Shown: piece after piece, positions 1,910-54,356 of the stretch
How the letters are laid out: each line of letters starts with the position of its first letter
Position numbering within the stretch: position 1 is the first letter of the stretch
Assembly: GCA_011525915.1 (NCBI GenBank)
Contig: WYBM01000035.1
Coordinates: 1-64,000 of the forward strand
From: Ardenticatenaceae bacterium
GTDB taxonomy: Bacteria; Chloroflexota; Anaerolineae; Promineifilales; Promineifilaceae
Direction of reading: 5' to 3'
DNA length: 64,000 bases
Notes under the pieces: model-generated
Seen by the model: the letters and a program-made list of their open reading frames with translations, nothing else
What the model was told of the DNA's origin: nothing
The model's database searches: none
Position numbers and translations under genes: made by a program

Positions 1910-3172
1910 ATGAAGCACAAGCATCCATGTACGTTCTGCCTTGTTTTAATGGCTATGGTAGTGGCGCTGGCTGCCTGCCAGCCACAAGAAGGGCCACCCG
2001 GCCCGGCTGGTGCGGAAGGTCCACAGGGCCCCCCAGGCCCTGAAGGTCGTGCTGGCGAACAAGGCCCGCCAGGTATACCGGGCGAAGATGGCCTTAGTTT
2101 TGTCCCCCCAGCTTTTGTGGGCAGTGAGGCGTGCGCCGAATGTCACCAGGAGACCTATGACGTTTTTATCAAGAGCGGCCACCCCTATAAGTTAACACCT
2201 GTGGTGGATGGGCAGCCTCCGGAATACCCTTTTACCGAACTTCCTGGCCCGCCGACCGGGTACACCTGGGATGACATTAGTTACGTCATCGGCGGTTACA
2301 ATTGGAAGGCGCGTTTTATTGACCAGGACGGGTTCATCATCACCGGCGGTGCCGACGCCACCACCCAGTATAACTTTTACAACCCGACGTTGGACTTAGG
2401 CGACAATTGGGTGGCCTACCATGCCGGGGAAGAAAAGCCGTATGATTGTGGCACCTGCCACACTACTGGCTATAGTTCCGTCGGCAACCAGGACGGCCGT
2501 CCGGGGTTGATCGGCACCTGGGCAGCGGGTGGCATCCAGTGTGAGGAATGTCACGGTGCCGGCAGCCTGCACGTGAATGCTCCCATCGTCTGGGAGATGA
2601 AAGTAGACCGCGATGCCCAGGCGTGTGGCGACTGCCACCGGCGTGGTGATACGACGGTAGTGGATGCCAAAGGCGGCTTCATTCAGCACCATGAGCAGTA
2701 TGAAGAGTTATTCCAGGGTAAACATATCACCATCGACTGCGTCGTTTGTCATGACCCTCATGCGGGCGTGGTGCAGCTGCGCCGGGCAGAGGTGCAGACA
2801 ACACGCACAACATGCGAAAACTGCCACTTTGATATTGCCCGTAACCGGGAGAATGAGATTCACAGCCGGGCAGAATGCATCAGCTGCCATATGCCTCGTG
2901 TGACCAAGACGGCCGTGGGTGATGCGGCCCAGTTCAGCGGTGACATTCGCACCCACCTGATGGCCATTAACCCGGCGCTGACCAGCCAGTTTAACGAAGA
3001 TGGCACAGTGGCCGCCTCTGAATTGGCATTGGACTTTGCCTGCCGCAGCTGCCACAATGAGACGTCTAATGCGTTTGCTGATAACAAAACAAACGAAGAA
3101 CTGGTTAATGCGGCCACCGGGTATCATAATCCGCCGGCGCCGGCGGTGGAAACGGAAACAAGCAATGAGTAG
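1910..3172 (+). CDS. Octaheme c-type cytochrome lipoprotein with collagen-like stalk
   Basis: This 420-residue exported lipoprotein begins with a signal peptide ending in the lipobox LAAC (Cys about 23). A collagen-like Gly-X-Y stretch rich in GPP/GPA/GEQ follows (about residues 28-63). The rest is a cytochrome c554-like domain with eight CXXCH motifs: CAECH, CGTCH, CEECH, CGDCH, CVVCH, CENCH, CISCH, CRSCH. The start is the ATG at 1910 behind AGGGAGGAAG; an upstream TTG/ATG in frame has no such site. It is first in a plus-strand cytochrome operon and is paralogous to the product of 10044-11309. It is likely anchored on the outer face of the membrane, the stalk holding the heme domain away from it. 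Electron donor and acceptor are unknown. Confidence 0.9.
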   Translation: MKHKHPCTFCLVLMAMVVALAACQPQEGPPGPAGAEGPQGPPGPEGRAGEQGPPGIPGEDGLSFVPPAFVGSEACAECHQETYDVFIKSGHPYKLTPVVDGQPPEYPFTELPGPPTGYTWDDISYVIGGYNWKARFIDQDGFIITGGADATTQYNFYNPTLDLGDNWVAYHAGEEKPYDCGTCHTTGYSSVGNQDGRPGLIGTWAAGGIQCEECHGAGSLHVNAPIVWEMKVDRDAQACGDCHRRGDTTVVDAKGGFIQHHEQYEELFQGKHITIDCVVCHDPHAGVVQLRRAEVQTTRTTCENCHFDIARNRENEIHSRAECISCHMPRVTKTAVGDAAQFSGDIRTHLMAINPALTSQFNEDGTVAASELALDFACRSCHNETSNAFADNKTNEELVNAATGYHNPPAPAVETETSNE

Positions 3173-3182
3173 AAGACTACAC

Positions 3183-3212
3183 ATTCCCGAACATGGTGCC
3201 ATGTTCGGGAAT
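3183..3212 (+). promoter_or_regulatory. Perfect 14-bp hairpin at operon junction
   Basis: ATTCCCGAACATGG (3183-3196) and its exact complement (3199-3212) are separated by only two bases. The hairpin lies between the octaheme gene and the next gene and just before TAGGAG. It covers an in-frame ATG (3193), which argues for the downstream TTG start. It may set relative expression or mRNA processing. Confidence 0.6.
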
Positions 3213-3228
3213 GGTAGGAGTAAGACGC

Positions 3229-4884
3229 TTGTCTTTTAAATTATCCCTTTCCGGGTTGATAGCCTACGGCCTGATGGCGGCCGGGGTGTGTTTGCTGCTG
3301 GGAATGTTGGCTGCAGCGGTAAACGCCCTGGCCGCCCCTGGTGAAGCACCCTTGGGTCAACCTGCGGCTCGCCCCCTACCAGCACAGCTCTCAGATAATC
3401 ACCCACCATTTAGCGATGATGCCTGCTTGCTGTGCCATACGGACACAGATGCCACCATCACTTTTCCCTCTGGTGAGGTGAAGCCTGTGCAGGTAGACAC
3501 GGCCGTGTTGGCCGCCTCTGTTCACGGGAGCATGGCTGAATCACCGCTGGCCTGCCAGGCGTGCCACCAGCCGCCCAATGATTACCAGTTCCCCCACACA
3601 CCACTGACCACCGCCACGCTGCGTGCGTATGACATTGCGCGATCAGAAACGTGTGAGCGCTGCCACGCGCAGTCTCATCTCACCAGCCACCCTGGCCCCC
3701 AGAGTGATAACCCGGTTGTCTGCACAGATTGCCACAACAGCCATGACGTGCAGCCCGCCGAAAGCTGGCACAGCGGCGCCAGCGAGGAAAATTGTACCGC
3801 CTGCCATGAAGCCCAAGGCGTGGCCGTATCACCGGAAATGACCACGGCCGTCATCCAATCTGGCCTTTTTGCCGCCCAAAAGAAAGACAATGCTTACTGC
3901 CTGGCCTGCCACAGCCAGCCAGGGCAAACCATGACCTTTGCCAATGGTGACCAGGTTTCCATTACGGTGGACGCTGCCGCACTGCATGATTCTGTCCATG
4001 GGGCGAACAATAAATGGGATGCACTGCAATGTACAGATTGCCATCAAGCGTATGACTTTCCCCACGCGCCGGTCACGGCCGTGACCGGCCGCCAATACAG
4101 CCTGAACCAGGATAACCTGTGCCAGCGCTGCCATGAAGTGCAGTTTGCCAAAGCACTCTCCAGTGTTCACAGTGCCGCCTTATTGGAAGGTAATCTAGAA
4201 TCGGCCCTTTGTTCAGACTGCCACAGCGCACACACCATGCCCAAACCAGACGAACCCCGGTCACGTATTAATGAGACGTGCCGCCAATGTCACAGCACTA
4301 TCTATGATGATTACGTAGAAAGTGTGCATGGCGCGGCGCTTACCACAGAAGGCAACCCAGATGTACCCTCTTGCGTGAACTGCCACGGTGTTCACAACAT
4401 TCAAGACCCGACCACCGCTGAATTTCGCATCAATTCGCCCACGCTGTGTGCCACCTGCCATGCCGATAAGGCGTTGATGGCCCAATATGAGATTTCTACC
4501 GACGTCTTTGAAACATACGTGGCTGATTTTCATGGGACAACGGATCTGCTTTTTGTCAGTGCTGGTGTCGAAGGGGCGCAGCTAAACGAGGCTGTTTGTT
4601 ATGATTGCCACGGCATTCACAACATTAAGGCTCCAGACGATCCTCAAGCTGGGATTAAACAAAATTTGCTGGAAACATGCCAACAGTGCCATCCTGATGC
4701 CACGGCAAACTTCCCCGCCAGTTGGACCAGCCATTACAAACCCTCGCTGCAGCACAATACGCTGGTTTATCTGATTGAACTGTTTTACAGCATTGTCATA
4801 CCGGTTACGCTGGGCTTCTTTGGCTTCCTGGTGGTGGTAGATGTGTACGGCCGTATGCGCCGCTACCGGCAGGCAAATCGCTGA
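3229..4884 (+). CDS. Membrane-anchored multiheme cytochrome c, 14 hemes
   Basis: The protein has 551 residues if started at TTG 3229, which sits 8 nt after TAGGAG. An ATG at 3193 would add 12 residues but lies inside a hairpin and lacks a ribosome site. It has an N-terminal signal peptide or anchor (about 5-35) and fourteen CXXCH motifs spread over about 60-495, several with the paired pattern of the doubled-CXXCH/cytochrome c3 type. A C-terminal hydrophobic segment (about 515-540) is followed by a basic tail. It should be held in the membrane with its heme domain outside. It sits between the octaheme lipoprotein and a cytochrome b, which suggests it links the membrane quinone system to surface cytochromes (inference). 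Confidence 0.88.
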   Translation: MSFKLSLSGLIAYGLMAAGVCLLLGMLAAAVNALAAPGEAPLGQPAARPLPAQLSDNHPPFSDDACLLCHTDTDATITFPSGEVKPVQVDTAVLAASVHGSMAESPLACQACHQPPNDYQFPHTPLTTATLRAYDIARSETCERCHAQSHLTSHPGPQSDNPVVCTDCHNSHDVQPAESWHSGASEENCTACHEAQGVAVSPEMTTAVIQSGLFAAQKKDNAYCLACHSQPGQTMTFANGDQVSITVDAAALHDSVHGANNKWDALQCTDCHQAYDFPHAPVTAVTGRQYSLNQDNLCQRCHEVQFAKALSSVHSAALLEGNLESALCSDCHSAHTMPKPDEPRSRINETCRQCHSTIYDDYVESVHGAALTTEGNPDVPSCVNCHGVHNIQDPTTAEFRINSPTLCATCHADKALMAQYEISTDVFETYVADFHGTTDLLFVSAGVEGAQLNEAVCYDCHGIHNIKAPDDPQAGIKQNLLETCQQCHPDATANFPASWTSHYKPSLQHNTLVYLIELFYSIVIPVTLGFFGFLVVVDVYGRMRRYRQANR

Positions 4885-4939
4885 TAGCAAATCACCGATT
4901 TGTTTGCGCCAAATGTTGTCTTGCCTTACGGGAGATAGG

Positions 4940-5794
4940 ATGACCTCTAAAGAACAACAATACGACCGCTTTCGGCTTGGTGCCCGGATTGAGCATATCA
5001 TTCTGCTGGTTAGTTTTACGGTGCTGGCCGTGACCGGCCTGCCACAGCGGTATGCCCAATGGGACTGGGCCCAAACCACCATCAATGCCCTGGGGGGCAT
5101 TGAAACGGTGCGCCTCATTCACCGCTATGCCGCCTTCTTGTTGGTCATTGGCTCTGTCTATCACCTATTCACCAGCGCCTACCGTTTATATGTGCGGCGT
5201 GAAAGAAACCGGATGATGCCAGACCGCAAAGATGCCGCCGACCTGGTGGGTTATGTGAAGTACAATCTGGGGCTGCAGGCAGAGCATCCCAAAATGCGTA
5301 AATTTAACTTTGGTGAGAAGCTGGAATTTTGGGCTGTGGTGTGGGGCACGGCCGTGATGATCATCACCGGCTTCATGTTGTGGAATCCCATTGCTACCAC
5401 CACTATCTTTCCCGGCCAGATCATCCCGGCGTCTAAAGCCGCCCACAGCTATGAAGCTTTGCTGGCAGTTGCTTCCATCATCATCTGGCATCTGTATAAC
5501 GTGGCTGTCAAACATTGGAACCCCAGCATGTGGACCGGTAAGCTGCCCCGCAAAATCATGGCCGAAGAACATGCCCTGGAACTGGAAAGAGTGGAAAGCG
5601 GCGAGCCGCCCTGGCCAGAAGTAGAGGCACCTGTTTTGCGCCGTCGCCGCCTGGTATTTGCCATAACCAGCGTGGTCGTGGGCAGCATTGTCCTGGTGGT
5701 GTTGATATGGGCTTTTACGTTTGAACAGACGGCGCTCATCACTATCACACCAACCAGGGAAGTATTTGTGCCTCTGGCCACACAGGTGCCCTGA
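4940..5794 (+). CDS. Cytochrome b561-like membrane subunit
   Basis: This 284-residue integral membrane protein has four main hydrophobic segments in the first 200 residues. They carry His residues typical of di-heme b-type cytochromes of the formate dehydrogenase/hydrogenase gamma type (for example ARIEHIILL, RLIHRYAAF, SKAAHSYEAL, IIWHLYNVAVKHW). A further C-terminal transmembrane helix (about 235-262) follows a charged linker. The start is the ATG at 4940 after GGGAGATAGG; open frame exists further upstream but overlaps the previous gene. Such subunits exchange electrons with the quinone pool. Placed among multiheme c cytochromes, it is the likely quinone-reactive module of the complex (inference). 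Confidence 0.85.
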   Translation: MTSKEQQYDRFRLGARIEHIILLVSFTVLAVTGLPQRYAQWDWAQTTINALGGIETVRLIHRYAAFLLVIGSVYHLFTSAYRLYVRRERNRMMPDRKDAADLVGYVKYNLGLQAEHPKMRKFNFGEKLEFWAVVWGTAVMIITGFMLWNPIATTTIFPGQIIPASKAAHSYEALLAVASIIIWHLYNVAVKHWNPSMWTGKLPRKIMAEEHALELERVESGEPPWPEVEAPVLRRRRLVFAITSVVVGSIVLVVLIWAFTFEQTALITITPTREVFVPLATQVP

Positions 5795-5904
5795 TGACTA
5801 AGGCCGCAAAGCACACAGAGGCTACAGAGCGTGAACCCTCTGCAGTCTCTGTGTTCTCTGTGGTAAAACAACCATTGAGCAACATGTTTTATTGTAGTTG
5901 TTTT

Positions 5905-5931
5905 TCTGGCACACACCCGGGATGTGCCAGA
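5905..5931 (+). promoter_or_regulatory. Hairpin in the leader of the decaheme gene
   Basis: TCTGGCACA (5905-5913) pairs with TGTGCCAGA (5923-5931), giving a 9-bp stem and 9-nt loop. It lies 30 nt upstream of the start codon and ahead of AGGAGG. It is another example of hairpins at the junctions of this operon. Confidence 0.5.
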
Positions 5932-5960
5932 TCATTCCTAACAAAAGGAGGAATTTCACT

Positions 5961-8198
5961 ATGACACACCCGAAATTTAGACGCATATGCCTTATTATCG
6001 GGTTTTTACTATTGTTCTCCTTCGGCATAACCGCCTGCTCTCAGGAGCCGGAAACCGTAGAGGTCACCCGCATTGTTGAAGTGCCGGTGGAGATTGAGGT
6101 TCCTGCCGAAACGGTAGAGGTTGAAGTGCCGGTAGAGGTGACGCGGGTGGTCGAGGTGATGGTGGAGCCGGACATGGCGATGTCCACCGTTCCCTTTGAA
6201 GAAGCATGGGCCAACTCGCCGCACGCGGACGCCGAAGCCCAAGCCTTTAATCACTGGAACGAAGATGACCCGGCCGAGATACCCATTGCCTGTGCTAAAT
6301 GCCACAGCACCACAGGTTTTATGGACTTTGTGGGCGCCGATGGCAGCGCCTTTGGTTCTGTGGAAACGGCCGTGTCCGTAGGTGAAGTGATCGAATGTCA
6401 GGCCTGCCACAATGATGCCACGGTGGAACTGGCCAGTGTTACCTTTCCTTCTGGGGTAGAGGTAACCGGGTTAGGGCCAGAAGCGCGTTGTATGACCTGC
6501 CATCAAGGCCGCGCCTCCACGGCTAGAGTCAACCAGGGCATTGCCGATGCCGGGCTGGACCCGGTAGCCGACCTGGATACGGTCAGCGCCGATGTGGGCT
6601 TTACCAATATTCATTACTATCCGGCAGCCGCCACACAATATGGCACCATCGCCATGGGCGGTTATGAATATGAAGGCAAGGCCTATGATTCCAAGTTTGA
6701 CCATGTTGAAGGTGTAGATACCTGCGTAGACTGCCACAATCCCCATACCCTGGAAGTGCAGTTTGATAAATGCACAGCCTGTCATCAAGATATGAGTGGC
6801 CCGGAAGACCTGGTAAATATCCGTATGCCTGGTTCGTTGGTAGATTACAACGGCAACGGTGATATCGAAGAAGGCATTATGGCCGAGATTACCGGGCTGC
6901 AAGCGGCTTTGTACCAGGCCATACAGGCGTATGCCAATGAAGTCACCGGCTCACCCATTGTGTATGACAGCGCCAGTTACCCCTACTTCTTTGCTGATGT
7001 CGATGGCAACGGTGAAATGAATGAAGGCGATGAGCGGTATGCCTCCTGGACGCCGCGCCTGGCCAAGGCCGCCTACAATTACCAGATGTCCCAAAAAGAC
7101 CCTGGTGAGTTTGCTCACGGTGGCAAATATACCATTCAACTGTTGTTTGATTCCATCGAAGACCTGAACCAGGCCATTTCTGAACCCGTTGACATGAGCG
7201 CCATGCGCCGCATTGACCACGGTCACTTTGCTGGTTCAGAAGCGGCGTTCCGCCGTTGGGACGAAGATGGTGAGGTGCCAGGTAACTGCAGCCGCTGCCA
7301 TTCGGCGGCCGGCTTGCCGTTGTTCATTGAACAAGGTGTGACCATCAACCAGCATCCGTCAAACGGCTTAAACTGCGCTACCTGCCACAATGATCTGGCC
7401 ACATTCAGCCGGTATACGGTGGAGAGCGTCCCGTTCCCCAGTGGAGCAACGCTGACGCTGGTGGAAGCAGAAGACGACGAAGCTGGCCTGGAAAGCAACA
7501 TGTGTATTAACTGTCACCAGGGACGCTCATCGACAGGCACGGTTAACCAACGATTGGGTGACCTGCCGGCCAATGACGTTTCAGACACCATCCGCTTTGT
7601 GAACATCCACTACTTTGCGGCCGGGGCCACGCTGTTTGGCAATGAGGCTCAAGGCGCCTACCAGTACGCGGACAAAGAATACTTGGGCCGTAATGAACAT
7701 GTCAACAGGTTTGATTCCTGTGTGGAATGCCATGACACGCATGCCCTGGAAGTGGTGGTGACGGAATGCGCCGACTGTCATGAAAATGTGGTGTCAGCCG
7801 CTGACCTGGTGAATATCCGTGACGAAGATAACACCACAGATTATGATGGTGATGGTGATGCTGCGGAAGGAATGGCTGGTGAAATTGCCACCATGGCCGA
7901 GGTGCTGTATGCAGCCATGCAAACGTATGCGGCCAACACCCCGGGCGCACTTCCTATCATCTACGATTCCCATCGTTACCCGTACTTCTTTGGCGACGCC
8001 GATGGCAATGGCGAGGTTAACGGCGAGGAGGCTGGTTACAACACCTTTACGCCGGAACTGCTGAAGGCCGCTTACAATTACCAATATGCTCAGAAAGACC
8101 CCGGCGCATTCGCCCATAATGGCAAGTATGTGCTGCAAGTCTTGTATGACTCCATTGAAGCGATTGGCGGTGATACTGCTGGTATGACACGGCCGTAA
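5961..8198 (+). CDS. Decaheme cytochrome c lipoprotein with internal duplication
   Basis: This 745-residue lipoprotein has a signal peptide with a Cys acceptor near residue 27, then a Val/Glu-rich linker of EVTRIVEVPVE-type repeats (about 30-72). Two homologous halves follow, each with five CXXCH motifs: CAKCH, CQACH, CMTCH, CVDCH, CTACH, then CSRCH, CATCH, CINCH, CVECH, CADCH. Each half also carries acidic loops such as DYNGNGD, DVDGNGE, DYDGDGD and DADGNGE that look like calcium sites. The start is the ATG at 5961 behind AGGAGG. It is last in the plus-strand cytochrome operon, ahead of a strong terminator. It is likely a surface electron carrier; no substrate can be read from the sequence. 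Confidence 0.88.
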   Translation: MTHPKFRRICLIIGFLLLFSFGITACSQEPETVEVTRIVEVPVEIEVPAETVEVEVPVEVTRVVEVMVEPDMAMSTVPFEEAWANSPHADAEAQAFNHWNEDDPAEIPIACAKCHSTTGFMDFVGADGSAFGSVETAVSVGEVIECQACHNDATVELASVTFPSGVEVTGLGPEARCMTCHQGRASTARVNQGIADAGLDPVADLDTVSADVGFTNIHYYPAAATQYGTIAMGGYEYEGKAYDSKFDHVEGVDTCVDCHNPHTLEVQFDKCTACHQDMSGPEDLVNIRMPGSLVDYNGNGDIEEGIMAEITGLQAALYQAIQAYANEVTGSPIVYDSASYPYFFADVDGNGEMNEGDERYASWTPRLAKAAYNYQMSQKDPGEFAHGGKYTIQLLFDSIEDLNQAISEPVDMSAMRRIDHGHFAGSEAAFRRWDEDGEVPGNCSRCHSAAGLPLFIEQGVTINQHPSNGLNCATCHNDLATFSRYTVESVPFPSGATLTLVEAEDDEAGLESNMCINCHQGRSSTGTVNQRLGDLPANDVSDTIRFVNIHYFAAGATLFGNEAQGAYQYADKEYLGRNEHVNRFDSCVECHDTHALEVVVTECADCHENVVSAADLVNIRDEDNTTDYDGDGDAAEGMAGEIATMAEVLYAAMQTYAANTPGALPIIYDSHRYPYFFGDADGNGEVNGEEAGYNTFTPELLKAAYNYQYAQKDPGAFAHNGKYVLQVLYDSIEAIGGDTAGMTRP

Positions 8199-8230
8199 CC
8201 AACCACCACCCGCATAGGTAACAACAAAAA

Positions 8231-8268
8231 GATGACAGCCACTTTCAAGTGGCTGTCATCTTTTCTTT
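8231..8268. terminator. Bidirectional rho-independent terminator
   Basis: A perfect 13-bp stem (8231-8243 with 8248-8260) has a 4-nt loop. It is followed by TTTTCTTT on the plus strand and preceded by AACAAAAA, which serves the minus strand. It lies between two convergent cytochrome operons. Confidence 0.9.
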
Positions 8269-8289
8269 AACTTATCTATGGACGTACCC

Positions 8290-10017
8290 TTACTTTTCGG
8301 GCGCGCCGGCGGCTATCCAATCAGCCAGAGCATCAAGTTCATCCTCTAACATCTGCCCAAAGTGTTCACGGGCCTCCGACTGTTTTTGAATGATCAGACT
8401 GGCTTCCGGGTTTCCGGGAACCAGCACCGGGCCGTTTTGGCCGCCGCGGCCCATGGCCTCATAGCTGCTCAGGTCCAGATCGGCTTCGGCTTTAACACCG
8501 CTGTGACAAAAGGTGCAACGGCCGTCAAACATCGTTCGGAATGTGCCTTCATATGTGCGCGGCACCCCCTCCAACAAATATGGGCTGGTGTGCAGCAAAA
8601 TGTATAGCTGCCGCTCCAGAACGGGCTGCAATTCTGTTGCATCAAAACCGGCGTACACCCATTCATTGGCATGGCAGGCGCTGTTGCCGCAAAATGAGCC
8701 ATCGGACGGCGGCTTTTCTGTGAGTTCTGTATAGTCTATAGACGGGTCTGCCGGCGCATGGCAGGCAGCACATGAGCTATCAATGGCTTTACCATGCAGG
8801 GTGATCCAACTGGAATGGGTATGTGATGGCGGTTCTGGCCCTCGCGGCAGTTCGATTGTGGTCACCAAGGCAGTATTATCCACCTGCGCCGGAATGGAGT
8901 GGCACAGATTGCATTCCAGACGAATGGCCTCGCCGCTGCCGGTGAGGTGCTTGCCATCATGGCAGCGAAAGCAGCCCGGATCATAGGTATGCCCCAGGTT
9001 ATTCGGGTGGGTATCCCAATCAATCTTTTGTTCGCGGAAAACAGATTGCTTGTAGATTTCTTGCACTGTTTTTACTGCTGCTTGCACGTCATCTGCACGT
9101 TCGGCATAAATGTCTGGGTAGGTTTCCGCATAAAAACTTTCCAGCCCGGCAATTCCTTCATAAGCAGCCTGATCACTCTCATACTCGGCGCTTAAAACGG
9201 CAAAAGCTTGCTGCCGTATATGGGGCAAATCGCCGGCGATCAAATATTTGCGCATAGCGGCATCAATGGCATTGCCTGGGTTGGGAATGTTATGGGTAAT
9301 GCGGTTGTGGCAGTTAAGGCAGTCCATGCGCGCCAAGACTGTACCAGCTATGTCGTCTGGTGTGTAGCCTGCACTGACGTCATAATATTCGCGGATATTG
9401 CCGGCTTCGTCTACCACCCGCACATAGGGGATGTCCTGTTCCAAGGCATCGGTGGCCAGGTAATAGACTTCGTTTTCAATGTGCCAGTGAATGCCCTGCC
9501 CCAATCCTTCACGCCGGGTGCCGCCGCCCGTTTTTAAGATGAGGTAGGTGTTTTCTGGCGTATTGTTTACATCATCGGCAAAGTGGTAAATTTCCCGCAG
9601 GCTGTCATCGGAGAATTTTTCAGGAAAGTGACACTTTTCACAGGTATCACGGGCGGGGCGCATCGCCCGGCTGTGAATGGGGAATTCATAATTTTGGGTA
9701 ATGGTCAACAACACATGGCGCAGATCACCTGCTTTGCGGGTGAATTGGGTAGTGACCACATCGCGGCCAATGTGGCATTCCACACACTGCACCCGGGCGT
9801 GTGGAGAGCGCTGATAGGCGCTGTATTCGGGCGGCATGGTATGGCAGGTGGTGCCACAGAATTCAGCGGAGTTGGTGTAAGTCCAGGCCTCCACGCTGCC
9901 ATAGGCAAATACGATGGTGACCATGCCTAAGACCACAAACGGCAGCAGGCGCAGCCACAAGGAACTGCCAGGGGGCGGAAGGAAAAAGTGTTTGAGGGCG
10001 GAAAACAGGTTGCGCAT
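8290..10017 (-). CDS. NapC/NirT-like nonaheme cytochrome c, membrane anchored
   Basis: This 575-residue protein has one N-terminal transmembrane anchor (about 22-45). A NapC/NrfH-like segment follows, with a CX3CH first site (CGTTCH, followed by TM) and CVECH. Further sites are CEKCH, CLNCH, CFRCH, CNLCH, CAACH, a CX4CH site (CGNSACH) and CTFCH, about nine hemes in all. The last about 80 residues resemble the small cytochrome domain of planctomycete-type proteins (from TFCHSGVKAEADLDL to the end). NapC-family proteins oxidise menaquinol and pass electrons outward. It lies 26 bp downstream of the octaheme lipoprotein at 10044, so the two are probably co-transcribed. Its role as quinol oxidase for that lipoprotein is inferred. 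Confidence 0.87.
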   Translation of the reverse strand: MRNLFSALKHFFLPPPGSSLWLRLLPFVVLGMVTIVFAYGSVEAWTYTNSAEFCGTTCHTMPPEYSAYQRSPHARVQCVECHIGRDVVTTQFTRKAGDLRHVLLTITQNYEFPIHSRAMRPARDTCEKCHFPEKFSDDSLREIYHFADDVNNTPENTYLILKTGGGTRREGLGQGIHWHIENEVYYLATDALEQDIPYVRVVDEAGNIREYYDVSAGYTPDDIAGTVLARMDCLNCHNRITHNIPNPGNAIDAAMRKYLIAGDLPHIRQQAFAVLSAEYESDQAAYEGIAGLESFYAETYPDIYAERADDVQAAVKTVQEIYKQSVFREQKIDWDTHPNNLGHTYDPGCFRCHDGKHLTGSGEAIRLECNLCHSIPAQVDNTALVTTIELPRGPEPPSHTHSSWITLHGKAIDSSCAACHAPADPSIDYTELTEKPPSDGSFCGNSACHANEWVYAGFDATELQPVLERQLYILLHTSPYLLEGVPRTYEGTFRTMFDGRCTFCHSGVKAEADLDLSSYEAMGRGGQNGPVLVPGNPEASLIIQKQSEAREHFGQMLEDELDALADWIAAGAPEK

Positions 10018-10043
10018 AACATTCTCCTGGTGTTGTCACCGGC

Positions 10044-11309
10044 TCAGGGTTGGGAAGTAGGGGTAGCCTCAGGCACGGCCGTAGGCTCTGGTGTGGGGTC
10101 AGGCGTGGCTGTAGGGGGTATCCAGGCATGGTATCCACGGGCCGCGGCGGCCAAGACGGCTGGCTCTTTTACATCGGCAAAGTCGCCGTTGTGGCATTGG
10201 CCACAAACATAGGTCAGTGTCAGGTATGGCATCACCTGGGTGCCGTCCTCGTTAAACTGGGGCGCATCAGGATCTGGGTTGATGGAAAATTGATGGGCAT
10301 GGATGTCGGCGGTAAACGTATCCAGGCGGCCCACGGCTGACCTGGCCATGAGCGGCATATGGCATTGGATGCAGGTGACACGGCCGTGACGGCTTACATT
10401 TTGCACCTGTTCTTGTGGCCAATGGCACGTTTCACATGCCTGGCTGATGCCTTTGTTGGGGCTCCGTTCAGCGTCTTCATAACGAGCGCTGGTGTGTGCA
10501 TCATGGCAGGTAATGCAGTCCAGGGCAAAATGTTTAGAGTTGTACAGATCGCTAAACTGCTGGTTGTGTTCGGCAAACCCCTCACGGGCATCGATGGTCG
10601 CTTTTTCGTCACGGACATGACAGTGGCCGCATAATTGGGCACTGCGGTCTACCACCAGGCGCACCCCCTGGGGGTCTTCCGCGTGGCGGCTGCCGGGACC
10701 GTGGCATTTTTCACATTGCACACCTTCATAGACCCACGTACCGTCAATCCCTTCGCGGTTATCCTGATGACCCTGGGTGGCGTAGCCCGTGGTGTGGCAG
10801 CGAGCACAGTCAAAAGCCACCGGCTCGCCCGGGTGGAAAGCGGCCCATTCGGCGTCCGTTTCCAGATTTTCATTGGCGAAGTTGTACTGGGCTGCCTCCC
10901 CGGTAATAACATAACCATCGTTGTCTACAAAACGAGCCATCCAGCCAAACCCCCCAATAACATAGCTGATGTCATCCCAGGTGTACCCGGCGGGTGGTGC
11001 TGGCAGGCCGTTAGTGATGTCGTCGTAGGGAAAAGCAGGGGGCTGGCCATTGCTGACAGCCGCAAGCGCGTTGGCATGGCCCGTCTGCAAAAAGCGGCTG
11101 TATATCTCTTCATGGCAAGAACCACATTGCGCCGCGCCCACAAAGGTCTGGCCGGCGGCGGCGTCTTCGCCGGCGGGGCCTACCGGGCCCATGGGCCCCG
11201 CCGGGCCGGCCGGGCCAAGTGGGCCGGCCTGGCCCTGAGGGCCAGCGCAGCTGACCACGGCTAAGCTTAACAACAGCAAAAGAGCAAACAGGTTATGGCT
11301 GTCAGGCAT
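10044..11309 (-). CDS. Second octaheme cytochrome lipoprotein with collagen-like stalk
   Basis: This 421-residue paralogue of the 1910-3172 product has a lipoprotein signal (VVSC, Cys about 21). A short collagen-like run of GPx triplets (about 22-47) comes next, then eight CXXCH motifs: CGSCH, CARCH, CEKCH, CGHCH, CITCH, CETCH, CIQCH, CGQCH. The C-terminus is Pro/Thr-rich, about 30 residues of TPDPTPEPT type, absent from the paralogue. The shared block AGYTWDDISYVIGG and the heme spacing show the relation. The start is the ATG at 11309 behind AAGGAGA. It is first in a two-gene minus operon with the NapC/NirT-like gene. Collagen-like stalks on cytochromes suggest cell-surface display. Confidence 0.9.
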   Translation of the reverse strand: MPDSHNLFALLLLLSLAVVSCAGPQGQAGPLGPAGPAGPMGPVGPAGEDAAAGQTFVGAAQCGSCHEEIYSRFLQTGHANALAAVSNGQPPAFPYDDITNGLPAPPAGYTWDDISYVIGGFGWMARFVDNDGYVITGEAAQYNFANENLETDAEWAAFHPGEPVAFDCARCHTTGYATQGHQDNREGIDGTWVYEGVQCEKCHGPGSRHAEDPQGVRLVVDRSAQLCGHCHVRDEKATIDAREGFAEHNQQFSDLYNSKHFALDCITCHDAHTSARYEDAERSPNKGISQACETCHWPQEQVQNVSRHGRVTCIQCHMPLMARSAVGRLDTFTADIHAHQFSINPDPDAPQFNEDGTQVMPYLTLTYVCGQCHNGDFADVKEPAVLAAAARGYHAWIPPTATPDPTPEPTAVPEATPTSQP

Positions 11310-29352: not shown

Positions 29353-29380
29353 AGGTTGCTCAAAGCAGCAACCTTTTCTT
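29353..29380 (+). terminator. Terminator-like hairpin just before a start codon
   Basis: AGGTTGCT/AGCAACCT with a 6-nt loop is followed by TTTCTT, only 15 bases before the ATG at 29389. As no plus-strand gene lies upstream, it may act as an attenuator or simply as a leader hairpin. Confidence 0.45.
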
Positions 29381-29388
29381 CATTGGGT

Positions 29389-30588
29389 ATGTCTGTGGGA
29401 AGAGTAGGGATTGTGTTGGGAATCGGCTTTATGCTGGCAATAGCGGCCTGTCAACCACAGGTGGTGATGGTAGAAGTGACGCGGCTGGTAGAACCAAGCG
29501 CGCCGTCTCCGGCGACACCCAGTCCGTCTACCCTTGAGGTCACCCGGCTGGTTCCCCAAGAAGTGACCCGGCTCGTCCCCCAGGAAGTGATCATTACCGT
29601 AACGTCGGTGCCCGTTGGTGCGCCAACACGGCCGTTACAGTTATTGTTTTCGCCGGTGGCCGACACGGCCGTGCTCATGCAGCGCGCTCAACCATTGGCC
29701 AATGCTTTGGCCGCCGCCACCGGCCGCCATTTTACCATTGGCATTGTGGATGATGAGCAGACGGTGATTGACCTGATGTGTGCTGCCCCGGCAGACACCC
29801 TGGGCTTCCTGTCGGCCGGCGGGTACGTGCTGGCCCACGAGCAGTGTGGTGTAATCGCGGCCGGTGTGGGCGTTAATGCCACCGGCCAGCCCTGGCAGAT
29901 GGGGATGATCGTAGCACGTGCAGACAGCAACATTCAAACCCTGGCCGGTTTAGCCGGCAAAACCTGGGCTACACCTGATGAAACCAGCCTCCCCACCACG
30001 TTGTATTTCCAGGCACTGCTGGCGGACGCGGGCGTCACGCCCGGTAACGTCACCGTTGTTCCTGGTGACAGCGCCGCCATGTTGGCAGTGTTAAACGGGG
30101 AAGTAGACTTTGCCACTGCCAGCTTTGTGCCTCCGGTGATGCCTTATGAAACCCGTGCATGGGTCTATGGGGAAGATGACCCGGAAGTGTGGCGGACGAC
30201 GGGCATTTTGCCGGGCCGCAGCGGCATTGGTTTTGTCATTGTCAACGGCGGGCCGGAAAATGGCGGTTACCGGGTGCGCGACGCCCGCAGCGGCATCTTG
30301 GACACCAACCGACTGGTTTTCCGAGATACGGAGATAGTGGCTTTGAGCGCCCCCATGCCCAATGAGACCATTGCCTTTGGGGCAGAATTCCCGGTAAGTG
30401 TGGCTCACCAGGTCACGGCCGTCTTAGCCACATGGGGCGCGTCTGAAGCTTGCCGCGCTTCACTTTGCGCCAGCGACGTGTATGGCTGGTCGGCCATCGC
30501 CCCGGCGGCTGACGCCGAGTATGAACCATTGCGTTTTATGGCTGACACGTTGGATTTGTCAGCAGAGGATTTGTTAGGTAATGATTAA
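29389..30588 (+). CDS. PhnD-like phosphate/phosphonate-type binding lipoprotein
   Basis: This 399-residue lipoprotein (start ATG 29389, lipobox IAAC) has a Chloroflexota-type linker of VEVTRLV and VPQEVTRLVPQE repeats (about 26-75). A periplasmic-binding-protein domain of the PhnD/phosphite type follows (about 85-370). Blocks such as RPLQLLFSPVADTAVL, DTLGFLSAGGYVLAH and LAGLAGKTWATPDETS support this. No permease or ATPase of that transporter type lies beside it, so it may be a sensor or an orphan receptor. It overlaps the next gene by 8 bases. Confidence 0.75.
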   Translation: MSVGRVGIVLGIGFMLAIAACQPQVVMVEVTRLVEPSAPSPATPSPSTLEVTRLVPQEVTRLVPQEVIITVTSVPVGAPTRPLQLLFSPVADTAVLMQRAQPLANALAAATGRHFTIGIVDDEQTVIDLMCAAPADTLGFLSAGGYVLAHEQCGVIAAGVGVNATGQPWQMGMIVARADSNIQTLAGLAGKTWATPDETSLPTTLYFQALLADAGVTPGNVTVVPGDSAAMLAVLNGEVDFATASFVPPVMPYETRAWVYGEDDPEVWRTTGILPGRSGIGFVIVNGGPENGGYRVRDARSGILDTNRLVFRDTEIVALSAPMPNETIAFGAEFPVSVAHQVTAVLATWGASEACRASLCASDVYGWSAIAPAADAEYEPLRFMADTLDLSAEDLLGND

Positions 30589-50896: not shown

Positions 50897-52381
50897 ATGC
50901 AAACACCTTTTAAACTCTTACTGGCTGGCTTGTTTGCCCTGCTTGTTGCTGCGGTGGTGAGCCTGATAAACGGTCGGCCTACGGCCGTATTTAGCGCCCA
51001 AACGGACGATCCCCCTGACAGGGTGACACAGGCCGCTTTTACGGCCGCCGGCTGCGGCGGCTGCCACGTCATTCCCGGCATTCCCAACGCGGTGGGCCAG
51101 GTAGGGCCAGATTTAACGAACATCGGCAGTGACGCTGCTAACCGGGTGGCCGGGCAAGACGCCGAAGCTTATATCCGCGAATCTGTGCTGAACCCTAATG
51201 CTTTCATCGCCCCGGTGTGCCCCGCCGGTGAATGCCCCAGCGACGTGATGCCACCTAACATGGCTGACCGCCTCAGCGCCAGCGAGTTTGACTACATCGT
51301 TGCGCACTTACTCACTTTGCAAGGGGAAGGCGTCACCAGCCCACCGCCTTATGAACTGACGCCAATTGAGATAACACGGCCGTCAGAAGCCAGCCTCACC
51401 CCCTTTGCCGAACCGCCCAAAACATATGAAGATGCCCAGGTTTTGCTGGGTAAATACCTCTTTTTTGACCCCCGACTTTCTGGGGATTCTAGTGTAAGCT
51501 GCGCCACTTGCCACCAGCCTGACAAAGCCTATGCCGACGGCCTGGCCCTCAGCGAGGGGTACACCAGCATGGGCTACTTCCGTAACACACCTACCCTCTA
51601 CAACACCGTCTACAACGAGGGGTATCTGTATTGGGACGGCCGTCTGGATGCCCTGGATATGCCTACGACTGTTCGTGATCATCTAACCGAAGCCCACTTT
51701 ATGAACAGTGACGGCCGTTTGCTGGTTGAACGCCTCAAACAGGTGCCCGAATACGTTCAGCTCTTCCAGGACGCCTACGGCAAGAACCCCTCCTTCGGCG
51801 GCGTTCTCAACGCCATCACGGCCTACGTTCACAGCTTGAACAGTGCTGCCACCCCCTATGATCTGTACCTGGCCGGGGAGCAGGACGCCCTGTCCACAGA
51901 GGCACTGGCCGGCCTGGAACTGTTTCAGGCCAACTGTGCCGCCTGCCACAGCGGCCCCACCTTCAGTGATGGCGCATTTTACGTCTCTGGCGTCCCTGAA
52001 AACGGGGACATCTGGGCAGACCCCATGCGGCACATCACCTTCCGCCACTTTATGCGCCAGCTTGGCGTGCCCAACTATCGTAACCTGGCAGCTGACGTTG
52101 GTTTGTATGATGTCACCAAAGAAGCGGCTGATTGGGGCGCGTTCCGCACAGCCCCCCTGCGTGAAGCCGCACACACCGCACCGTACATGCACAATGGCGT
52201 TTTGGGCACGCTGGCAGAGGTGGTTGACTTTTACAATGACTCATTAGCCCTGAACCTTACGGCCGCCGAGAAAGCTCAACTGCTGGCTTTCCTCAACAGC
52301 CTCAGTTCACCAGAACTACCCGCCGTGGAAGCAACCGATCAGCCCACATACCAACTGCGCACATTAGGAGACAACCAATGA
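50897..52381 (+). CDS. Triheme cytochrome c peroxidase-like protein (IdrP1/MauG family)
   Basis: This 494-residue exported protein (signal anchor about 7-30) has an extra N-terminal cytochrome c domain (CGGCH, about residue 53). The di-heme peroxidase module follows with CATCH (about 200) and CAACH (about 350) and conserved blocks FFDPRLSGDSSVSCATC, YWDGRLDALDMP and FRTAPLREAAHTAPYMHNG, each shown in part. Such enzymes reduce peroxide with electrons from cytochrome c. The context (second peroxidase, Rieske, AioA-type subunit) matches IdrP1/IdrP2 of iodate reductase. It starts at ATG 50897 with AAGGAGG and overlaps the next gene by four bases. Confidence 0.88.
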   Translation: MQTPFKLLLAGLFALLVAAVVSLINGRPTAVFSAQTDDPPDRVTQAAFTAAGCGGCHVIPGIPNAVGQVGPDLTNIGSDAANRVAGQDAEAYIRESVLNPNAFIAPVCPAGECPSDVMPPNMADRLSASEFDYIVAHLLTLQGEGVTSPPPYELTPIEITRPSEASLTPFAEPPKTYEDAQVLLGKYLFFDPRLSGDSSVSCATCHQPDKAYADGLALSEGYTSMGYFRNTPTLYNTVYNEGYLYWDGRLDALDMPTTVRDHLTEAHFMNSDGRLLVERLKQVPEYVQLFQDAYGKNPSFGGVLNAITAYVHSLNSAATPYDLYLAGEQDALSTEALAGLELFQANCAACHSGPTFSDGAFYVSGVPENGDIWADPMRHITFRHFMRQLGVPNYRNLAADVGLYDVTKEAADWGAFRTAPLREAAHTAPYMHNGVLGTLAEVVDFYNDSLALNLTAAEKAQLLAFLNSLSSPELPAVEATDQPTYQLRTLGDNQ

Positions 52382-53640
52382 GCGATAAGAATCAAAACCA
52401 AAGTGGCGACATGAAATCTTTTGTTATTGTGATGGCCTTCGGGTTGGCGGGCATGTTAATCATCATCGGTTTCGGTATTTTTTACTACACGTACCTGAAT
52501 TCGTCAGCTCAAACAAAAACGACTGACGCCCCCACGGCCGTCACTGACGCCACGGGCACAGAAACGGCGGCAACAACAGTTACCGGGCCACCGCCATTAG
52601 CCCCTTTACCGCCAGTCAGCTTCCCGCCAGACAACCCCTACAGCATGGCCAAGGCCGAACTGGGGCGCCTGCTTTACTTTGACCCGCGCTTCTCCGGTGA
52701 TGGCTCTATCTCTTGTAACTCTTGCCACCCGGCCAGTGATGGCAGTTGGAGCGTATCCAGCCCCATCTCTTTTGGCTACCCCGGCAGTACCCACTGGCGC
52801 AATGCCTCCACCATCATTAACAGCGCCTACTACAGCAGGGTCAACTGGGACGGCAGCGCTACCAGCCTGGAAAAACAGGCCAACGGTGCCTGGGGTGGTG
52901 CCGTGGCCGGGAACATAGATTCCGCCCTGGCAGAAGAGCGGCTGGCGCAGATTCCTGACTATGTGCGCCTCTTCAAAGAAGTGTATGGCACAGAGTACCC
53001 CACCTGGGGGCAGGCGCTGGATGCCGTAGCTACCTTTGAACGTACCATTGTCAGCCAGAATGTGCCATTTGACGCTTACCTTAGCGGTGATAGCCATGCT
53101 CTTTCTGATGAAGCCAAAGCGGGTTATGATCTGTTTGTCGGCCGGGCGAACTGTATTGCCTGCCACAACGGCCCGCTTATCAGTGATGACTCGTTCCACA
53201 ACACGGCCGTGCCGGAAGCCCCTGAATTCACCAACAACCCCCTGAACCAGATAACCTTCCGGTATGAGCAGTGGGCCAAAGGGGTGACGGAAGAAGATTA
53301 CAACACGGCCGTGGCTGATTTTGGCCTCTATTACATCACCAAGATGGAAAGTGACCGGGGCAGCTTCCGTACGCCTGGCCTGCGTGATGTTTGTTATACG
53401 GCCCCTTATATGCACAACGGCATTTTTAAAACCCTGGAAGAGGTAGTCGCCTTTTATAATGCCGGGGGTGGCAGCAGTCCCCATAAAGACCCGCTTCTTC
53501 AGCCGCTCAACCTGACAGACGACGAGCAGGCATCTTTAATTGCCTTCCTACAAAGCCTCTGTGGTGACAAATTGATCATCCAGGCGCCGGAACTGCCGCC
53601 ATACGCCCCATCAGATATGAGCGAGGCCAGTGGCCCGTAG
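52378..53640 (+). CDS. Di-heme cytochrome c peroxidase-like protein (IdrP2/MauG family)
   Basis: This 420-residue protein has an N-terminal helix (about 16-38) as signal anchor, a Thr-rich linker, and two heme sites, CNSCH and CIACH. The blocks LGRLLYFDPRFSGDGSISC and FRTPGLRDVCYTAPYMHNG are shared with its neighbour at 50897. It overlaps that gene (ATGA), so they are co-translated. The two are probably partners; in idr loci they are thought to deal with hydrogen peroxide or reactive iodine intermediates. Confidence 0.88.
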   Translation: MSDKNQNQSGDMKSFVIVMAFGLAGMLIIIGFGIFYYTYLNSSAQTKTTDAPTAVTDATGTETAATTVTGPPPLAPLPPVSFPPDNPYSMAKAELGRLLYFDPRFSGDGSISCNSCHPASDGSWSVSSPISFGYPGSTHWRNASTIINSAYYSRVNWDGSATSLEKQANGAWGGAVAGNIDSALAEERLAQIPDYVRLFKEVYGTEYPTWGQALDAVATFERTIVSQNVPFDAYLSGDSHALSDEAKAGYDLFVGRANCIACHNGPLISDDSFHNTAVPEAPEFTNNPLNQITFRYEQWAKGVTEEDYNTAVADFGLYYITKMESDRGSFRTPGLRDVCYTAPYMHNGIFKTLEEVVAFYNAGGGSSPHKDPLLQPLNLTDDEQASLIAFLQSLCGDKLIIQAPELPPYAPSDMSEASGP

Positions 53641-53739: not shown

Positions 53740-54294
53740 ATGACTGAAAACCTTTGTGATCCTACTCAAACTGTCATTTCCCGCCGTGGCTTCCTCAAAT
53801 TGGGGACGGCCGCTGTGGTGACCATTACCCTGCCCGCCTATCTGCGTAAGCCGGGCATGCCCATCACCTTTAAAGCCAATCTGGCCCAATATGAGCAAAA
53901 AGTTATTGCCAAAATGAGTGCGCTGAAGCCAAATGAACCGGTCGCCTTCAACTATCCCTGGGATGATCCGGCTGCCGCTAACTTCTTGATCATGCTCAAC
54001 GAACCAGCCGGTGGTGGCATAGGCCCAGACCAAAACGTGGTGGCCTTTAACAGCTTTTGTACGCACCAGGGTGGCCCGCTTACCGGGCAGTTCCAGGGCA
54101 ATAAAGGCATTGCTGGCCCCTGCCCCTTGCATTGGACGACGTTTGATATGACCCGGCATGGTATGGTCATCAGCGGCCATGCAACGCAGGGATTGCCCCA
54201 AATCTTATTAACATTGGAAGGTGATAACATTATCGCCACCGGTGTGATGGGCTTGATTTTTGGGTACGTTGATAACCAGGAAAACCCAGCTTAG
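53740..54294 (+). CDS. Rieske [2Fe-2S] small subunit, AioB/IdrB family
   Basis: This 184-residue protein has a Tat signal (SRRGFLKLG, about 14-22) and a Rieske domain with both cluster-binding loops, C-T-H in FCTHQGG and C-P-L-H in GPCPLHWTTFD. AioB/IdrB proteins accept electrons from or give them to the molybdenum subunit and carry it through the Tat pathway. The start at 53740 has GGAGAAA upstream. It is followed directly by the large subunit gene, the standard pairing. Confidence 0.9.
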   Translation: MTENLCDPTQTVISRRGFLKLGTAAVVTITLPAYLRKPGMPITFKANLAQYEQKVIAKMSALKPNEPVAFNYPWDDPAAANFLIMLNEPAGGGIGPDQNVVAFNSFCTHQGGPLTGQFQGNKGIAGPCPLHWTTFDMTRHGMVISGHATQGLPQILLTLEGDNIIATGVMGLIFGYVDNQENPA

Positions 54295-54307
54295 GTGGCG
54301 GCTGCTG

Positions 54308-54322
54308 ACGAGCTTCGCTCGT
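54308..54322 (+). promoter_or_regulatory. Small hairpin at the junction of the two reductase subunits
   Basis: ACGAGC/GCTCGT with a 3-nt loop (possibly one further G-T pair) lies between the Rieske stop codon and AAGAGGA of the next gene. Confidence 0.45.
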
Positions 54323-54356
54323 TTAGAAGAGCATGTCACCTTTCCAAGAGGAAACT

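Follow-up and report, generated by a model that had tools for sequence, protein, structure and literature searches.

The placement of cytochromes on the surface of single-membrane bacteria is an open problem, and the mechanisms of metal reduction in such cells were called 'largely unknown' in the Ardenticatena genome paper (PMC4591325). Chloroflexota are regarded as single-membrane bacteria; in Ardenticatena maritima, cytochromes at the surface have been implicated in an exchange of electrons with electrodes (PMC5808234, PMC4591325). The present locus bears on this problem. A stretch of 64,000 nucleotides from an Ardenticatenaceae bacterium (assembly GCA_011525915.1, contig WYBM01000035.1, positions 1 to 64,000), referred to here as the window, codes for two octaheme lipoprotein cytochromes, P1 and P2, in which a collagen-like Gly-X-Y run lies between the lipobox cysteine and the first heme. 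An earlier note on this DNA had suggested that the run is a stalk. What this segment is, how widely it occurs and what it might do were examined by computation.

Materials and methods

Homologues of P1 and P2 were sought at an E value of 1e-20 among 298 genomes of the class, of which 39 gave matches, and 52 genomes of the family (37 with matches). A wider set was made up of 92 homologues with at least 150 bits, 55 of them from Chloroflexota. Individual loci are designated by L numbers. The class was searched with the collagen model PF01391 (199 genomes, 65 with matches) and the loci were then read; the same model matched in 63 of 148 genomes of a second Chloroflexota class and in 11 of 29 genomes of a third. 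The OmcA/MtrC decaheme model TIGR03507 matched in 15 of the 298 class genomes. Lipoboxes were called by visual inspection and with a simple rule-based script rather than with a trained predictor.

Substitutions in the stalk were counted over 1304 comparisons of 15 stalks ending in GxDG(L/I/V)S. A quick maximum-likelihood tree was built from 90 heme domains. P1 was modelled as a single chain with AlphaFold2 from a 50-row alignment, and structures were compared using VIA-align.

Results and discussion

Architecture of P1 and P2

The features of the two cytochromes and of the genes between them were as follows.

1910..3172, plus strand: P1, lipoprotein octaheme cytochrome, 420 aa
1910..1978, plus strand: P1 lipoprotein signal, LAAC lipobox, Cys23 (sequence and rule-based lipobox script)
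1991..2098, plus strand: P1 collagen-like stalk, 12 Gly-X-Y triplets
2132..3127, plus strand: P1 octaheme domain, first CXXCH to last conserved His, OcwA/MccA-like fold
3193..4884, plus strand: c7-type multiheme cytochrome, 563 aa, 14 CXXCH, C-terminal membrane segment
4841..5794, plus strand: b-type cytochrome (PF01292), formate-dehydrogenase-gamma-like; the true start is probably inside the ORF
5898..8198, plus strand: decaheme lipoprotein, 766 aa, VEV-type repetitive spacer behind the lipobox
8290..10017, minus strand: NapC/NirT-type multiheme quinol-oxidase-like cytochrome, PSCyt1 domain, 575 aa
10044..11309, minus strand: P2, lipoprotein octaheme cytochrome, 421 aa
11163..11243, minus strand: P2 collagen-like stalk, 9 Gly-X-Y triplets
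11247..11249, minus strand: P2 lipobox cysteine, VVSC, Cys21 (sequence and rule-based script)

An alternative start of the P1 ORF lies at 1883; the start at 1910 yields a normal lipoprotein signal. By the script rule, both proteins have a lipobox cysteine after the signal peptide. In P1, Cys23 is followed by QPQE, 12 unbroken triplets (residues 28-63) and 8 CXXCH sites from residue 75, and in P2, Cys21 is followed by one residue, 9 triplets (residues 23-49) and 8 CXXCH sites from residue 62; in each, roughly a dozen residues link the run to the first CXXCH. The arrangement described in the earlier note was thus confirmed, at 12 and 9 triplets, with P2 on the minus strand, a point that the note had left unsaid. 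The two proteins are 45% identical over 381 aligned positions. When each segment from the Cys to the first heme was shuffled 20,000 times, the observed run was never reached. PF01391 matched only the P1 and P2 stalks in the whole genome (7.46 Mb, 106 contigs, assigned to Chloroflexota from its relatives), with 31.2 bits for P1 (above the cut-off) and 22.7 for P2 (below it); in a protein scan the scores were 26.1 and 21.4, both under the cut-off of 27.2. A search of viral contigs gave no relative.

Conservation of the stalk

Within the family the stalk was present in 50 of 52 distinct octahemes, that is, in every copy with a readable N-terminus, the remaining two being a broken frame (L043) and a copy that runs off its contig (L046). 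All three parts, the lipid anchor, the collagen-type stalk and the octaheme domain, are real and conserved. Among the 55 Chloroflexota homologues of the wider set, 39 were stalked (including L020, whose own lipobox is cut off), 11 were stalkless and 5 were unreadable because of a broken frame or a cut; three homologues from other Chloroflexota classes were without a stalk. It was found in 0 of 37 homologues from other or unnamed phyla, at least three of which are cut at the N-terminus. On sequence evidence, stalked octahemes are restricted to Chloroflexota in the sets examined.

The 1304 comparisons held 737 changes at X, 822 at Y and 768 (59%) at the third base of the glycine codon; the count of 0 glycine changes is partly a product of how a run is defined, but the rarity of interior breaks is not. 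Such a break was seen in one of 38 stalks (L025, a single in-phase glycine replacement), and runs of 8-16 triplets were found in 37 of the 38. In 14 of the 15 stalks that end in GxDG(L/I/V)S, the linker length was a multiple of 3. Proline occupied X in 314 of 495 triplets and Y in 89 of 495; a preference of proline for X is expected in an unhydroxylated triple helix. These patterns of change indicate that the stalk is maintained by selection on glycine.

Fold of the heme domain and comparison with known systems

The model of P1 had a mean pLDDT of 87.9. Values exceeded 90 over most of the heme domain and lay at about 47-50 along the stalk; the latter, from a single chain, fits a disordered linker equally well. 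The best structural match was OcwA (6i5b; Z 17.1, rmsd 3.1, 286 residues), followed by MccA (4rkm; Z 16.4 over 319 residues) and the undecaheme S-layer cytochrome of Carboxydothermus (Z 14.9), after which the next family fell to 6.7. Octaheme nitrite reductases, HAO and NrfA reached a Z of only about 4-7, at which kinship is still possible. The modelled heme domain of P1 has the OcwA/MccA/c554-type multiheme fold. A His-His pair is placed over heme 2 of OcwA (excerpt of PMC6703420); in a profile alignment, with a derived numbering offset of 29, it aligns to H260-H261 of P1, and P2 has His-Asn at this position. Outside CXXCH, a ten-sequence alignment contains no more than six invariant His, which makes it possible that some hemes are open.

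OcwA, the cell-surface terminal reductase of Thermincola potens, comes, like P1 and P2, from a single-membrane host. It has nine hemes, whereas P1 and P2 have 8 CXXCH each; a C-terminal three-helix bundle, where the P1 model has one short helix past the last heme; and an ordinary cleaved signal peptide with no collagen stalk (PMC6703420, excerpt). The octaheme sulfite reductase MccA shares with P1 and P2 the eight hemes and the CHDP(H) and CHMP motifs, but it is larger, has no stalk and contains a CX15CH heme site (excerpt of PMC7096707). In place of that site, P1 and P2 have CRSCH / CGQCH as the last one. Geobacter sulfurreducens has an outer membrane. Like P1 and P2, its PgcA is a lipoprotein cytochrome whose linker is long, repetitive and rich in proline, but this linker consists of 29 PTx repeats instead of Gly-X-Y and there are three hemes instead of eight (PMC5732950, in excerpt).

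The bacterial collagen-like proteins Scl1/Scl2 and Bucl8 have Gly-X-Y repeats in common with P1 and P2, but no heme domain. Bucl8 has been predicted to be a lipoprotein, and its channel domain has been modelled as a trimer (PMC4565658); with 50-79 triplets, the repeats of Scl1/Scl2 are longer than the present stalks. The word 'cytochrome' is absent from the review PMC8968730, as is 'collagen' from the text of PMC5808234. No printed account of a collagen-stalked cytochrome was found among the matches listed in one open library, in agreement with the earlier note, which knew of no described cytochrome of this arrangement.

Gene neighbourhood

P1 is followed by the 563-aa c7-type cytochrome, the b-type cytochrome and the decaheme lipoprotein, and P2, on the minus strand, by the NapC/NirT-type cytochrome. 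In family loci with at least 900 bases downstream, a homologue of the 563-aa protein lay downstream of P1-like genes in 26 of 30 cases, and a NapC-type homologue downstream of P2-like genes in 16 of 16. The two copies head separate operons, the long-stalk form with the 14-heme/cytochrome b pair and the short-stalk form with the NapC/NirT-type protein. Stalk length was 10-17 triplets in P1-like proteins (n=34) and 8-10 in P2-like proteins (n=16; Mann-Whitney p 1.5e-8, kinship uncorrected). The difference fits a tuned spacer, though descent of the paralogues by itself could have produced it. Both the b-type and the NapC-type protein come from families that oxidise quinol, so that each stalked octaheme would appear to be distal in its own respiratory chain.

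The first heme site of the NapC/NirT-type protein (8290-10017, minus strand) is CGTTCH, with three residues between the cysteines, and its PSCyt1 domain is C-terminal. A repetitive spacer of the VEVTRxVEVP type stands behind the lipobox of two other lipoproteins (5898-8198 and 29356-30588), which brings the types of lipoprotein spacer in this genome to at least two.

History of the stalk

All stalked rows of the heme-domain tree fell in one clade of 53 (SH-aLRT 98), with two stalkless Spirochaetota rows inside. Seven changes suffice to explain the distribution of the stalk, and, with polarity read from the tree, the history would be one gain and six losses. Three losses are also without a lipobox (L053/L054; L017; L032/L037/L041). 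The other three keep it (L033, L034/L036, L035); these are first members of tandem pairs, in which the second copy is stalked where readable. The earlier note had held that loss in close relatives with intact function would tell against its reading: on the tree, stalk loss would have taken place outside the family, some six times, but not inside it. In six independent pairs, 3-4 showed stalk and lipobox changing in the same direction and 0-1 in the opposite one (p at least 0.125); a link between stalk and lipobox in the octaheme set is suggestive, not significant, and the idea that stalk loss follows lipobox loss was not retained.

The Spirochaetota rows, L053 and L054, are from MAGs titled Spirochaetes; the proteins are about 60% identical to P1, lie inside the Chloroflexota clade and have neither lipobox nor stalk, which may reflect either transfer or misbinning. 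In the stalkless L034 (5998-7215) and L036 (1886-3103) the first heme site is CGEADCH and CGEEGCH, with four residues between the cysteines. Close relatives of one family, L032, L037 and L041 without lipobox and stalk and L028, L029 and L038 with them, offer a natural comparison pair.

The same stalk on other proteins

P1 and P2 were themselves rejected as members of the OmcA/MtrC family, P1 scoring 18.2 bits against the TIGR03507 cut-off of 209.3 and P2 being unlisted. Class members of this decaheme family share the lipobox-plus-stalk arrangement. L174 has two tandem OmcA/MtrC decahemes (447 and 441 bits against the cut-off of 209), both with lipobox and stalk. More distant OmcA/MtrC-like decahemes (L167, L170-L173) carry the same pair, as does L175, a carboxypeptidase-regulatory-like plus multiheme protein. 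Likeness between P1 and the stalked decahemes and multihemes compared is confined to CXXCH and the stalk. Above the TIGR03507 cut-off there were 8 proteins, 7 of them stalked; the other, L212, combines its lipobox with a long Pro/Ser/Glu linker in place of the stalk. Below it, L214, L217, L220, L223 and L225 were stalked, L215 is the same place as the stalked L172, and L216, L218 and L219 were without both lipobox and stalk. L224 is truncated, and no ORF was called for L221 within the script limits. In the sets read, no complete stalk without a lipobox was found in either the octaheme or the OmcA/MtrC family.

Of 21 distinct ORFs in the class loci with Gly-X-Y next to a lipobox, 20 contained CXXCH, a figure biased by the choice of some regions by frame length (13 of 14 in the 30 loci picked by the search tool), against 0 of 20 other Gly-X-Y ORFs, some of which are antisense. 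In the two other classes, 20 of 39 Gly-X-Y ORFs were lipobox-adjacent and only 2 of these 20 had CXXCH, both being small cytochrome c lipoproteins (L272, L278); among the 18 others, L279 is a cut ORF that looks by eye like an OmcA N-domain. The candidate statement that only P1 and P2 have this arrangement fails on the stalked relatives and unrelated cytochromes, and that of a cytochrome-specific stalk fails on the other classes, in spite of 2 of 2 in the source genome. Occurrence on unrelated cytochromes, and elsewhere mostly on non-heme proteins, points to a lipoprotein display device at the level of the phylum, of which surface cytochromes make heavy use, rather than to an electron-transfer part as such. 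Judged by the loci read, the stalk is a general lipoprotein spacer of Chloroflexota, in the class of P1 and P2 carried almost only by cytochromes.

The loci L269-L320, from the other Chloroflexota classes, contain numerous small lipoproteins in which a collagen stalk bears uncharacterised non-heme domains.

Proposed function and alternatives

Omp85 gave no match in the source genome, as in single-membrane bacteria; the control was found in 7 of 14 genomes. With a probability of about 0.58, P1 and P2 are considered to be surface octahemes of the OcwA/MccA fold, set on lipid-anchored trimeric collagen masts and fed by their neighbours. In favour of this stand the architecture, the family-wide stalk with its steady glycine, its phase and its proline at X, the modelled fold, the operon pairing, the lack of an Omp85 match, the like stalk on OmcA/MtrC decahemes and the finding of every complete stalk with a lipobox. 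The lipid on the N-terminal cysteine would tie each chain to the cytoplasmic membrane on the outer face, and the Gly-X-Y segments of three chains would form a short triple helix. At the rise per residue of a triple helix, 9-12 triplets correspond to about 8 nm (P2) to about 10 nm (P1), and a mast of this length, itself non-conducting, would carry the cluster of heme domains off the bilayer. Electrons would pass from the quinone pool to the heme domains of P1 by way of the 14-heme membrane cytochrome together with cytochrome b, and to those of P2 by way of the NapC/NirT-type cytochrome, and then to extracellular or wall-side acceptors, which would amount to a role in extracellular electron transfer. 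A trimeric state of MccA or HAO was not confirmed by a text search. Against the mast, 9-12 triplets make a short run for a stable helix when no known trimerisation domain is attached; the low pLDDT of the stalk, the six losses read from the tree, three of them with the lipobox retained, the non-significant link of stalk and lipobox, the stalkless octahemes of other phyla and the mostly non-heme use of the stalk in another Chloroflexota class also count against it. Gram-positive walls measure 20-80 nm, and in Thermincola a polymerised cytochrome is thought to cross the wall (excerpt of PMC7911101); a stalk of 8-10 nm could not span such a wall alone, so the proposal of the earlier note that the stalk lifts the heme domain through a thick wall was given up.

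A monomeric, extended Pro-rich spacer comparable to the PTx linker of PgcA (excerpt of PMC5732950) or to the VEV-type spacer, giving reach with no trimer, is rather unlikely. The low stalk pLDDT in the single chain, the shortness of the stalk and the linkers of the lipoprotein cytochrome PgcA and the decaheme relative L212 would agree with it, but such a spacer does not need glycine at each third place, kept with an interior break in 1 of 38 stalks while X and Y vary freely, and it leaves the strong bias of proline to X and the mostly in-phase length changes unaccounted for. The repeat can practically be dismissed as chance low complexity, slippage or an assembly artefact: although GC-rich repeats can slip and frame breaks lie nearby in L036/L055 and L043, chance is ruled out by the shuffles, by the stalk of all 50 readable family members and by the drift of the glycine codon third base.

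As for the heme domain, it is unlikely that the octaheme is a displayed enzyme of small substrates (sulfite, nitrite or hydroxylamine) and not a reductase of solids. The fold match to MccA, the alignment of the OcwA heme 2 pair with H260-H261 of P1 (His-Asn in P2) and the possibly open hemes suggest an enzyme; set against these are the CXXCH in place of the CX15CH site, a conserved operon in which no substrate-specific gene was found, and OcwA itself, which does both jobs (excerpt of PMC6703420). Adhesins are among the known bacterial collagen-like proteins, judging by profile model names, but a part acting mainly in adhesion or in mineral or sheath binding, with no mast, is improbable for a segment that sits between the lipid and the first heme, keeps to 8-16 triplets in 37 of 38 stalks and is joined by no further binding domain.

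The reading of P1 and P2 as mast-borne octahemes may be extended, tentatively and at somewhat less than even odds, to a general lipid-anchored collagen mast of Chloroflexota with three chains (24 hemes in the octahemes) and a length matched to the partner quinol module (10-17 triplets for 14-heme/cytochrome b, 8-10 for the NapC-type). Its cargo would include OcwA/MccA-like octahemes, OmcA/MtrC decahemes and small cytochrome c domains. A collagen mast would be a concrete answer to the problem of surface placement for a large phylum with few isolates. If true, it would be, to our knowledge, the first collagen-type helix mounting redox proteins, and proteins of the OmcA/MtrC family, known from outer membranes, would also work in cells without one.

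Other genes in the window

An arsenite oxidase-type pair is located at 53740-57005, consisting of a Rieske small subunit (TIGR02694) and a molybdopterin large subunit (TIGR02693), both over the cut-off. It is preceded by two MauG/MbnH-like di-heme proteins (50897-53640).
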